DNA from: Trebouxia sp. TZW2008
Lineage: Eukaryota > Chlorophyta > Trebouxiophyceae > Trebouxiales > Trebouxiaceae
Reading direction: 5' to 3'
Length of the DNA stretch: 64,000 nucleotides
Assembly (NCBI GenBank): GCA_002118135.1
Contig: BDIU01000047.1
Location: 286,484-350,483 of the forward strand
The translations under genes and the position numbers were made by a program. The notes below the pieces were generated by a model, which was given only the letters and a program-made list of their open reading frames with translations, did not search any database and was not told the DNA's origin. Positions 3,001 through 62,800 of the stretch are shown one piece after another (within the stretch, counting starts at the first letter, position 1; each line of letters opens with the position of its first letter).

Positions 3001-6000
3001 GGTTTGAGTGTGATGCAAGGTGGTATGGGTTCATTGCTGATCTTTGAGGCTGGCACTGCGTCTAGAGGCTACAGGGTAGTCACTTCAGAAGTGATCAGCT
3101 GTGCACAAGAATGCATGATGCATGCAGGGCAGATACATACCCTCAGAGGCTCTCCTCCTGGCAGGCACTGGCTGCTGCCCCTCACCCCCTTGCTCAGCCG
3201 TCCTAGAGCTGATGAGCACCATGATTAGGCTAGGCAACACATGCACAGCCGCCAAGACCCCCCCAATGGCGCTACCAACCCCAATCAGGGCTACTGCCAC
3301 ATCAGGGCTGTTGCCCAGGGCCAGTAGCAACGGCCTGACCACATGCTCCAGAACCACTGGCAGCGTCAGTTTGCTGCTGACCACCCCACATAGAGCTGTG
3401 CTGCTGGTGTTAGTCAGCTGGGCACGCTCAAAGGAAGCTGCAACCTGGCTGGCTGTCTGTCCCTGCCTGCTGCTGCCTGCTTGAGGTTCATCAGCAGATG
3501 TGACAACCACATGCATGATCAGCGGGTGAAAATGTGTCAGATAGGTGTCTAGACCTAGCTTGTCAAACAGCGCTGGCATTAGGTGTAGGGTAGACAGGCG
3601 TACAGCTGTTGACGCTGAGCTGTGCTGAGCACTGAATGGCTTGATAAGTAACTGCAGCATGTGACGGTGAAGCTGAGACTGGTTGAGTATGTCCACCAGC
3701 ACTCTGACCACAGCACACCAGTGTTGAACAGCTGCAGCATGTCCTTTGGGGGGTGGGACAGGGGTGCTAGGGGGGTCGCTGGGGGGTTGGCGTCTGTCCC
3801 CAGGGGAGTTGTGGGGGGGATGCAGCAGGAAGTCCAGGGTGGAGGACAGTGTAGCGGTGAAGCCAGGGAGGCAGAGGCACAGGGCAGAGGGCTGTGCCTG
3901 GAGGGCAGCTAGCTCGCCGGAAGCTGCCCTGGCAGCTAGGGCAGCCAAGGCACTGCAGCCTGTTGCCTCCTCTGCATATCAGAATCCATTTATCTGAAAC
4001 TTCATTCATTTCAGAAAATGCACTACACAACTGCGCCTGCCCAGCAGGCAAAGTTCAGTTTCCAAGAGAGACACACCATCCTGAGCTGCGTCATCACATG
4101 CAAGATGACCCGCTGTGACAAAATTGCGCTCAACTAGCGGCAAGGTGCAGTCTTCATGAAAGAAACGTCACGTTGAGCTGTGCTACCATGTCAAACAAGA
4201 CTTGCCAGAATGAACACATGGAAAGAGAGCCTTACCTTGGAGCCAAAGTGCAGTCCCCAAGAGAAAAGTGCCAACCTTCTCTGTGCTATCCTAAAGGATC
4301 AAGATCTGCTGTATTGAAATGCAATAATGAGGGTAGGCGTAGGTAGCAGCCAAGGTGCAATCTTCAATACAGACATGCCAACTTGAGCTGTGTTGGCATG
4401 GAACAACAAAGAAAGCGCCTCACCTAACAGCCAAGGTGCAGCTTCCAAGAGAGAAATGCCAGCCTGTGTCGGGCTATCATCTGAAATGGGCATCTGCCAT
4501 TTGAATTCAACAGGCGGGCTGACAGGGTGCAGGGCTGCTAGAAAGAAAGCTGCAGTCCTAACGGGCTGAGGGAAGAAGTCGCAGTCCAGCAGTGCTGCTG
4601 CTGTTGGGCGGTGGCTGGTCATGGGTTCCAGGCAGGTCCTAGCTAGGGCTTGGCAGGGGCAGGGCAATTGCGACACCTCCTTGGCCCAGAACCTGAACAG
4701 TGCATGCAAGTTGAAATCAGTACATGCAGTGCATGCGACAGGCCCTTGACCCAAGTGGGGCAAACAGACAGAATTGTGCAGCGGCACCAAGCTTCAGCCA
4801 CGAACCCATCTACATCAATGGAAGCTTTGGCTATGAGCTTGCATGGCCACCAGCACAATTCTGCATCAACTTGATGCATAGACAGCCAAACTCCTGTGGC
4901 CAATTGAAATGCAACAAGCATGCCAGATATGCAGAAGGCAAAATACATTGCATCCAGGCGTTCCATTGCATTCCACCTGTGGTCTGAGGGACTACAACGC
5001 ATCAGGCAGCAAAGGCATGGTCAGCCTGCAAGCTGCAGTCATGCCAGGTATGCAGGTGACAGGAAGCTTGCCAACCAGCAAACGTGCAACGTATAGCACC
5101 TGTGGTCTGAAGGGCTGTGATACATCCAACGGCCCCTGTACAGCTGCACAACTAGCCGCCCAAAAGCCGCCACATCTTGAGCAGGCCCTGGCGCCTCATG
5201 CTGTGCCTGCTGAGCCTCCGCAGGCGCCCCATATTGCTGTCCATCTGCTGCTGAGCCTGAGTCTGCCCCATTGGCAGGAGAGGTGGGTTGAACGGGGTCA
5301 GGAGGCATGGATTGGCAGGGGTTGAGGGGGTCTGCATGTGAGTCCTCGATCTGTCGATCTGTCTGTGCGCCCCTGCTTGGCTCATTTAGCTGGCCTAGGC
5401 TGTCGTCGTGCTGGTTTGCTGTGCTGTGAGGGTGTCTACCATTTGTGTGGACTGAGACCTTGGTGTGCAGGGACTCTAGCATCTGCAGCTGTTGGAACGG
5501 TTTGAGCTGCTTCACCTGCATCAACAGCAGCTGTGACCACTGACAAGCTGAAGAATTGAGACTGTTACTGGGACGAGATAGATTCCACTACTTGTGGCAG
5601 GATATTGAGTGGAGCAATGTCCCAGAGTTTTGCATCTTGCCAGACCAAGCTGGCACTAGCTGCCACTCAACATGACTGCAGCATGGCTGCCCTACATGTC
5701 ATGTTCAGCGCCACTCACATGCTGTCCAGCAAGACAGCAGATGACAACAACACAATGTCTTCCCACAAGAACACCATGTCTTCCTCAACTGTGTTGACCT
5801 ATAGCCTCTCGACTGGCGAGGAAACAATATCAAGCTTGGGCAAATCTGGCAGGATGTGGTTAAAAGCGCAGCTTCTATCACCTGTTGAGTAGCAAGCAAA
5901 TTGATTGCTTGGGCATATCTGGGTGAATGTGGCTTGAAGTGCACCTGAGGTCACCTCCGCACCTGAGGTCACCTCCCAGTCAGAGCATCCTGTCGCCATG

Positions 6001-59800: not shown

Positions 59801-62800
59801 TGTGTCCAGGGCAACAGCCCCATGCACCATGCCCCTTAGCCTGCGGGCAGCTGCCACATTGGCTGCACCTCGCGCCACGTCTGGGTTCAGCAGCCGAGGC
59901 ATCTTGCCACCACCAGTCATTATCCAGTTTGTTTGCAGCGCCTGCAACAGTGAGAGCCAGGGTCAGAGCAAGGACAAGTGCAAGGGCAGTGGCAACTGCC
60001 CTATGCACCACGCCCCTTCGCCTGCGGGCAGCTGCCACATTGGCTGCACCTCATGCCACATCTGGGTTCAGCAACCGAGGCATCTTGACACCGCCAGTCA
60101 CTATCTAGTTGCTTGGAAACGCCTGCACAGAACAGGGCAAGTCAAAAAGCTGGCACAGCATCATAAACCATGTGCCATGCTCATTAGCCTGCAAGCTGCT
60201 GCCACATGGGCTGCACCCCATTTTTCATCTGGATTTGGTACGCCTTGCGTCTTGCCGCCGTCTGTCACTATAAAGCAGGTGTGCAGCGCAAGAGCGAAAG
60301 CAAGGATGAGAGTGAAACACAGACTCGACATTTTGCTGATTGGCACATACTGCATGAGCTTCATTATAGGCAAACAATCAGCAGCGTGGCAACACAGCAG
60401 AGTTCAGCAAGCATGCAGCAGCTGTAACACAGTTGTGTTGGACAGTGTGTTGTCTCAAGCATGCATGAGCTGCAGCAGAACAATGTGCTCTTCCATCAAG
60501 CATGCTCCGGCTGAGACACAGTGATGTAAGGCATCATAGCAGTTGCTGTGGCAGACCTGCTGTGCAGTGAGACGGCTGTCAGGGTCATACTCCAGCAAGC
60601 CCATCACAAGCTCCTGTGCCTCTGGTGATAAGGAACGCCACCTGTAACAGACACTCTGATTATCAAAATGACTGATGTCTGCATTGAAACCAGACACGTG
60701 TTTTGATTGCTCATGCCAGCTTGGTGACCGTGCTGAAGTCGTTTACGAGCTACAGTAACTTCTCTCTGTAAGGACACTTGATGTATGGACATGCTTGTTA
60801 AAGGGACAATGCAACTGGGGACCGACCACTGCATTCTGACTGCAGTGGTCCCTTTGAGTAAGGATATTTTGATCCAAGGACAGATTTCTTGGCAACCAAA
60901 GCAGTCGTCACAAATAGAAGTCTCTGTACTACCAATGTTGCAAAGCTACACCATGCAGGAGCTGTGTGCCTCCTAAAGACTGTAAATGCACTCTTGTCGC
61001 GTAGCTCCGCGAGGACAATGCATGCTTTGTGCGTGTCAGAGACAGGCCTCTGATGCATGTGACATTGACAAAACTGGTAAATTGTCACTCAGGGAGAACA
61101 ATGCCATGCATTCGAGGGCCTGAAATAAAATACATAACACAACACAACACAACACAACACAACACAACACAACACAACACAACACAACACAACACAACAT
61201 CACATAACATAACATAACATATCATGACATAACATGCATTGCATCTGATTGTAGACAACGCCTGTGATGCAATATGAAGAGTAAACAATGCCACATCCAG
61301 GCGCTTGACATAAGCATTGTGTCTGATTATTGACAAAGCCTTTGATGCAACATGAAGACTCGACAGCACATTGTATGTTACAGCCCTCAGCAGGGTGTTT
61401 GAAGAAGATGCCCGCCTGAGGGTTGACTCGAAGGTTCCCCTGCGGTCATGTCTGCATCATAGCACCAATGCTAGGGTTATGCAAATGCCAAGAATGGTTA
61501 CAATATGAGGTCTGAAGAAGCCTGACTGGTGAGACGGGACTTGGGCGACACACACCTAGCACATGTGCTGGCATGTAAAATGATGATGGTGATTTATTAT
61601 TAGGGTGTTTTGAAGAAGAAGCCCACCTGGGGTCCTGCATGCCTGGACACTGCTCTAGGTCCATGTGCACATAAGAGAGGCTCTCACTGTCTGAGATGTT
61701 GAAAGGCTTGCGTCCCACCAGCAGCACAAACAGCACCACGCCCACAGCAAAGACATCCATGGCAAAGGTATGCGGCTCGCCAAGAATAGTCTCTGGAGCA
61801 ATGAAGCCTGGAGAGCCCAAAGCACCTGTATAGCCACAGATGCAGTTGGCTGTGTATCGAGTTGCTGCAATCATATTCATATGCATCGCGTTCTATACAT
61901 TGCACATAAAAAACACCCTATCTTTTTATAAAGATTGGAGATTGATCCAAGCGACCTGGAAGTGCATCAGATTTTACACCTAACGAGTGAACTCCGGCAT
62001 TGATAGAAACTTTTGGACATTGTCTTGCTCAATATTGCATTTGAATGGCATGTGAAAGCTGCTGTATGTTTGAGATGTCAAGCAAGATATCTGCTTTGCA
62101 TGCCTTGCATGCATGACATTGTCTGTTGACCCCATCTGTGACAATGCCATGACAGTAAAGGTTGACTGATGATTTAGACAAGCCAACAACAACCACTAAG
62201 GCAAATAAGCCTCATCAGGGAGACTTATGCACATTTCACAAAGATCTCGACAGTGCTTTATGCACATACATGCATCAATGCGTATCAGCTCAAGTATGGC
62301 AGTAGTCAAGCCATGCTGCATTGCATTGGGCAGGCATAACAAGTGTGATGTACCTCTCAAGGGTGTTTTGGGGCTGTAGTAAGCTGACATGCCCAGGTCA
62401 ATCAACTTGACATTGAAGGCTTGACTCGGGTCCTTGGTCTCAATGTTGGTCTCTACATCTTGAGCAAACATAACATTCTCTGGCTTCAAGTCTCTGTGCA
62501 TGATTCCCTGCTTGTGCAGATATGCAGTAGCTTCCAGTATCTGCAGCACAGCAGAGCTTGTTCATCAGCAACTCAACTGCAGAGCTGCATGCACTCAAGC
62601 AGCATGCAGCACACTGCATAGGTTGGCATGCAACAAGGCTGCATAGGACTTGTGCTGCACACACCTAGCAATGTATGCTTGACATTATAGTGCTTGTTAC
62701 TGTCAGAAAGGCTGCATCACCTTTGCACTTGGCAACGCATTCACTTCAAATCAGGTGATATACCTGAGCAGCAATGGCTGAAGCTTGCTGTTCAGTGTAT

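Follow-up and report, generated by a model that had tools for sequence, protein, structure and literature searches.

Tandem copies of exon edges crowd the introns of Trebouxia sp. TZW2008 and probably arise from random duplications that splicing tolerates

We report that introns of the green alga Trebouxia sp. TZW2008 hold a dense population of short head-to-tail duplications, most of which reach from an exon into the intron beside it. The stretch under study is a 64-kb segment of contig BDIU01000047.1 (assembly GCA_002118135.1, positions 286,484 to 350,483; hereafter the window), analysed together with 15 stretches of 10 kb (L002 to L016) on 10 other contigs; L008, whose 160 N had been removed for the scan, was dropped from the pair counts, and arrays were counted in the window and 14 stretches, that is, 204 kb of a 68.5-Mb assembly of 527 contigs. 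With the unit offset limited to at most 320 bp, and simple repeats with a period below 25 dropped, we identified 93 arrays, present in the window and in 12 of the 14 counted stretches (L006 and L009 are without them), which cover 40 of the 204 kb, about 20% of the sampled sequence; about 13% is added sequence. The unit measures 142 bp on average (standard deviation, sd, 43), and 63 of the 93 arrays cross one exon edge, in equal measure on the donor (31) and the acceptor (32) side. The remainder comprises 13 intron-internal arrays, a single exon-internal one, 6 with predicted exons, 6 intergenic and 4 with both ends in exons. Arrays touch 111 of the 293 predicted introns, the touched introns having a median of 408 bases and the untouched ones of 290.

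Self-comparison of the window by a calibrated self-BLAST returned 38 direct pairs with a separation below 1.5 kb (near pairs), 7 direct pairs farther apart and 14 inverted rows, every one of which joins the simple repeats at 19.89 and 49.25 kb. A first filter applied to the window and L002 to L016 left 178 direct and 38 inverted near pairs, whereas one dinucleotide shuffle of each locus gave none of either kind, and an improved filter gave 261 near direct pairs (L008 excluded) and 44 near inverted ones. Forty of these 44 inverted pairs lie in L012 (6.7-8.2 kb) and L013 (1.1-7.8 kb), mixed with direct pairs and unlike the other loci; elsewhere direct pairs far outnumber inverted ones, the copies being close, in the same orientation and unrelated in sequence between loci. 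In the observed distribution of offsets over all sampled loci, pairs are most frequent at 150-175 bp and increase again at 325-350 bp, roughly twice that distance. Head-to-tail copies with a spacing of the order of 100 bp are a feature that the arrays share with close direct repeats, minisatellites and tandem repeats internal to genes.

Exon edges were taken from two sources. A self-trained gene finder (214 kb) yielded the donor consensus CAG/GTAAG and the acceptor consensus TGCAG/G (the slash marks the splice site), with a median exon of 127 and a median intron of 288 bases; in three genes of the window, edges were also obtained with a spliced aligner from Trebouxia and Myrmecia homologues (3 for a MORN-repeat protein, 5 for a SEC23/24-like protein and 4 for a BEACH protein). 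The gene finder matched exactly 64 of the 76 homology-derived edges in these three genes; outside them, most exon models are its predictions. Among six copy-bearing exons outside the window, a Pfam search supported four as coding (AAA, DnaJ, malic enzyme and DnaJ-X), the other two being without a family.

An initial annotation of the window had listed 18 sites at which an exon edge and its splice site appeared duplicated, and this observation is confirmed and extends beyond the window. Self-BLAST recovered 14 of the 18 sites (6 of 9 donor-side, 7 of 8 acceptor-side and the one whole-segment case); the other four, at 4.0-4.5, 4.98-5.1, 61.4-61.6 and 14.75-14.98 kb, gave alignment scores of 52, 30, 42 and 45, each above the best of 60 dinucleotide shuffles per site (25, 25, 25 and 35, respectively). 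A correction concerns the site at 58.96-59.23 kb, where the array (58888-59283) has its two ends in predicted exons. The proposed comparison of junction-spanning with internal duplications could be made in the 204-kb sample, with the result of 63 one-edge, 13 intron-internal and 1 exon-internal arrays given above. The interpretation offered with these sites is partly supported, as follows.

Once formed, the copies have decayed without coding constraint. In 59 copies, the differences between exon and copy amount to 0.137, 0.133 and 0.214 at the three codon positions, frameshifts result from 23 of 25 indel runs, and stops number 12 in 1340 codons, which is the pattern of one constrained sequence, the exon, paired with one unconstrained sequence, the copy. 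Where one alignment covers both, similarity is as a rule higher over the exon than over the intron (0.94 and 0.77 in L012; 0.87 and 0.62 at 59941 of the window; 0.87 and 0.68 in L005), the reverse being seen in few cases (0.75 for exon and 0.81 for intron at 45207 of the window). It had also been claimed that the copies keep their splice sites, which is correct only in part: in the sample, GT or AG is present in 36 of 59 edge copies and lost in the rest, the neutral expectation being 41.3 (sd 3.4), and the copies thus show neither a sign of preservation for splicing nor, over the whole set, a significant purge. For copies ending at the edge, the dinucleotide is kept in 12 of 28 where about 20.7 would be expected, a deficit from which we draw no conclusion: alignment also stops where a site has mutated, and the low value is therefore partly built in.

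This bears on the suggestion that alternative sites or exons could come from the copies, and on the related explanation that they are used alternative or poison exons under selection, which we regard as very unlikely. Some copies do have good splice signals, with donor scores of up to 7 (the median of real donors is 5.1), and the gene finder called seven of them exons in the three checked genes. However, frameshifts and stops stand at the neutral level, splice dinucleotides are not over-retained, and the partner sites beside the copies are no stronger than those of random windows (mean percentiles 0.32-0.44); judged from sequence features, the idea finds no support and functional alternative exons were rejected. 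Tandem (mutually exclusive) exon duplication implies a second copy with frame and both splice sites, and what we find instead are partial exons with frameshifts and no strong partner site. At most arrays in the three checked genes, the spliced homologue alignments use one exon copy and add no extra exon. As a separate observation, the SEC23/24-like gene holds several exon copies at 15489-16417, and the best alignment of one homologue, P0123, splices into one of them, which marks that copy as a candidate for genuine use as an alternative.

The explanation that we consider probable is random tandem duplication tolerated by splicing, with unequal decay inflating the visible junction class. The nuclear genome would very often undergo head-to-tail duplication of segments of about 60-220 bp, at random positions. 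With exons and introns as short as those found here, about half of the duplications that leave the mRNA as it was would cross one junction. Duplications inside exons, or otherwise changing the mRNA, would be lost, and those within an intron or across one junction would be kept, the latter because the outer original junction still yields an unchanged mRNA: on the donor side the first copy would stay in use and on the acceptor side the last, the others turning into intron and decaying without constraint. Selection would hold the exon, and a copy of it would thereby be recognisable for longer than two decaying intron copies, inflating the junction class among visible arrays. The data show how dense the arrays are, the size of their unit, the position of their edges, their donor-acceptor symmetry and the absence of coding constraint; from these we infer random placement, the splicing outcome and a slip of replication or repair as the source; that the duplications pass through Okazaki- or nucleosome-sized replication intermediates is a guess from size alone.

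The same reading had been the first of two put forward with the initial annotation, namely that random duplications survive where splicing can skip the copy, and it fits most of the evidence. It is favoured because donor and acceptor counts are equal, only one array is exon-internal, decay is unconstrained, and, under a null model of uniform placement, 44-49% of the duplications that are tolerated would already cross one edge. Taken alone, the uniform test pointed to junction targeting; it ignores unequal decay, and we therefore added simulations and exon masking. In forward simulations of decay, the visible edge share is 0.53-0.55 with equal neutral rates and 0.64-0.67 when introns decay 2-3 fold faster. 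Masking the exons restricts the comparison of both copies to intron sequence, and under this condition an edge is reached by 18 of 57 arrays (null 0.34-0.41); an earlier version of the masking gave 13 of 36 with a null of 0.35-0.39, 14 ambiguous arrays having been set aside. A process acting on junctions is unneeded for most of the excess, because a pair made of an exon and its copy stays recognisable for longer than an intron-intron pair.

Several results weigh against random placement as a full account. The observed unmasked edge share, 63 of 76 (83%; 63 of 82 if ambiguous arrays are counted as internal), is higher than in every decay simulation (0.53-0.67). Arrays at least 88% alike comprise 13 edge, 3 internal and 2 ambiguous cases (p 0.006, or 0.03 with the ambiguous as internal), and 9 of the 10 BLAST arrays in the three homology-checked genes cross an edge. 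When every masked array tied to an unmasked edge array is counted, the masked count rises to 38 of 57; masking may miscount either way, the lower count missing arrays whose edge-side intron has decayed, and 18-38 of 57 is therefore a range. The ends of the copies point in the same direction. With copies that stop more than 6 bases inside the exon dropped, 17 of 22 aligned copies of at least 88% identity have their end between -5 and +16 bases relative to the splice site, and the lower identity bands give 14 of 35, 16 of 48 and 2 of 36; in simulations the share of the top band is 4% under equal rates and 20-49% once introns decay faster. Among 28 copies of all ages that end at the splice site, the intron sides are alike (p<0.01) in 4, as compared with 24 of 27 in the other class.

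These observations are what could be expected of a process favouring exon edges, such as template switching in repair or replication tied to transcription or to RNA-DNA hybrids, which would place a copy of an exon end, together with a few bases of intron, at a distance of about 80-125 bases within the intron; the duplicated DNA would then be marked by splicing or transcription. Such a junction-favouring process was the second reading of the initial annotation, and besides the edge share and the generous masked count it can claim the exon 2374-2664 of L003, where 60 exon bases are 92% alike and the intron sides are unrelated (null p 0.94), the DnaJ exon 2163-2442 of L005, where a 93-base exon end is 89% alike (p 0.08), and the spacers of donor-side copies ending at the splice site, which measure 79-127 bases in 10 of 13. 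Nevertheless, the lower masked count is without an edge excess, gapped alignment reveals intron similarity in some edge-ending copies (L014, edges 673 and 3883; by eye also in L007), and exon models outside the three checked genes are mostly predicted. In addition, four to seven intron bases often match beyond the edge, and the template must therefore have been unspliced. Two-copy pairs made of intron only also align over just part of the unit: in 28 exon-masked two-copy arrays, the median aligned fraction is 0.77 at 84% identity or more, 0.47 at 76-84% and 0.98 in the third band, so that intron structure turns over fast. Because of this fast turnover, even in purely intronic pairs, and because some of the 22 high-identity copies come from tangled loci where the exon calls are uncertain (L005 at 7.1-8.4 kb, L014 at 7.4-9.1 kb, and L015), we do not take the copies ending at splice sites as proof that exon edges are copied as such. 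We hold preferential copying of exon ends with the first intron bases to be unlikely. Random duplication explains most of the pattern, the true masked count lying between 18 and 38 of 57; strong targeting of junctions is unneeded, and a modest preference, up to about threefold, is possible.

Mobile elements of the introner type or a fault of assembly might also leave recurrent insertion-like blocks within introns, and we judge either extremely improbable. In a genome search, the array at 57.8 kb and two spacers each match only their own place, and few dispersed matches (7 of 45 forward rows) appear in the self-comparison of the window; introners were rejected on the single-copy state of this array and the two spacers, and assembly stutter on the 5-30% by which copies differ. 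Two small dispersed repeat families, 71-79% alike, do occur in the window, one at 33184-33305, 45415-45544, 60753-60928 and 26022-26105 and the other joining 7145-7246 with 44420-44810. Outside the sample, a search for kinase domains met the same part of the domain twice within 500 bp at C130:70887-71249 (L017) and C73:131817-132422 (L018), as expected for exon copies.

The individual arrays of the window, all on the minus strand except for the intronic ones, for which no strand is given, were found by self-BLAST unless stated. On the donor side, and with edges backed by spliced homologue alignment (4424, 5100, 6066, 6905, 17745 and 34605), they are the copies of exon 4424-4692 (4135-4478) and a weak 20-bp copy at edge 5100 (4974-5116), both in the BEACH gene and both detected by score against shuffles; a copy of exon 6066-6285 (5878-6136), with 71 exon bases 80% alike and an intron side that cannot be aligned; a copy of exon 6905-7128 (6693-6967); an array at exon 17745-17936 (17308-17848; unit about 123-147); and one at exon 34605-34851 of the MORN gene (34365-34641; unit 78-79). 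Homologue-backed acceptor-side cases (edges 6285, 9783, 14786, 34851 and 19061) are a copy of exon 6066-6285 (6206-6447; 80 exon bases, 80% alike), an array at exon 9601-9783 (9692-10096; unit about 150), a copy near exon 14573-14786 (14723-14996), a three-copy array of 99 bp at exon 34605-34851 (34809-35118; exon part 86% and intron part 84% alike) and an array at exon 18987-19061 (19019-19614; unit 166), the last being absent from the initial list. As for 14723-14996, known from its score, the alignable portion ends 19 bases inside the exon.

At 45.2, 51.4, 58-60 and 61.6 kb the edges come from the gene finder. Here we find donor-side pairs at 51319-51441 (unit 78) and 58680-58862 (unit 118), a 32-bp donor-side copy at edge 61627 (61392-61633, by score), an acceptor-side pair at 45146-45425 (unit 142) and acceptor-side arrays at 57801-58410 (unit 166, 3.6 copies, 91% alike, one place in the genome) and 59810-60312 (unit 181). 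The array at 50694-51055 contains a predicted exon and is ambiguous, and that at 58888-59283 has both boundaries inside predicted exons. Purely intronic are 8720-8884 (a pair, unit 91, 88% alike), 30189-30318 (period 32/64, from the array classification), 44479-44791 (which also resembles 7145-7246) and 49591-49822 (a pair, 75% alike). The whole-segment case consists of several copies of exon 16180-16417 with its flank in the SEC23/24-like gene (15487-16314); only 2 of 5 homologues agree on its edge 16180, two others place it at 16194 and P0123 splices into the array, and the homologue gene models differ among themselves at 15.5-16.4 kb.

The best matches of the three host genes are in Trebouxia sp. 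C0005 for the MORN-repeat (64% identity) and SEC23/24-like (70%) proteins and in Trebouxia sp. C0004 for the BEACH/GFS12-like protein (61%). The MORN and BEACH domains of the Trebouxia homologues P0001 and P0215 are at odds with the public names of these proteins, Cadherin member 2 and Spectrin beta chain, respectively, and no match was found in PDB for a portion of the SEC23/24-like protein.

Tandem duplication within genes has been connected with intron creation before (Gao and Lynch 2009; Rogers 1989; Hellsten 2011; as cited in PMC4974935), and such duplication is common to those systems and ours. The Rogers model duplicates an exonic AGGT segment, whereas the Trebouxia unit contains a pre-existing splice junction. 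Closest is the potato RdRp gene, in which one tandem duplication across an intron-exon boundary made a new intron (Ma, Lan and Niu 2016, PMC4974935): the duplicated unit spans such a boundary in both cases, but potato offers one gene with a new intron and Trebouxia 63 of 93 arrays in 204 kb, on donor and acceptor sides and homology-checked in three genes. In contrast to close direct repeats and similar arrays as known elsewhere (see PMC2812944), the Trebouxia arrays have mostly 2-4 strongly diverged copies, one of which is the conserved exon end, and they take up about 20% of the sampled sequence. Introners (PMC9860276) and the Trebouxia arrays are both genome-wide and alter introns; however, introners are dispersed copies of one element and the arrays are local copies of the sequence of each exon. 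A search of open-licence papers found no report of the pattern in Trebouxia, nor genome-wide in any alga, and in the available portion of the paper on the Trebouxia sp. A48 genome (69.1 Mb, 49.7% GC; PMC12712428) the word "tandem" is absent and "intron" occurs once.

These findings have a practical side for annotation, since copies of exons get called as exons: in the three checked genes, 7 of the 10 predicted exons without homology support are such copies (9848-9907, 10000-10050, 15489-15554, 15659-15741, 15814-15865, 17598-17675 and 19384-19417). Because the duplications touch 111 of 293 introns and make up about 13% of the sequence, with 0.3% of the genome sampled, intron length in this genome is in good part a record of tandem duplications, and the exons are slow clocks by which they can be dated. 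A single organism would thereby allow the rate of duplication, the growth of introns and the availability of spare splice sites to be measured. If a preference for junctions were to survive an unbiased count, it would suggest a link between splicing or transcription and the local duplication of DNA.

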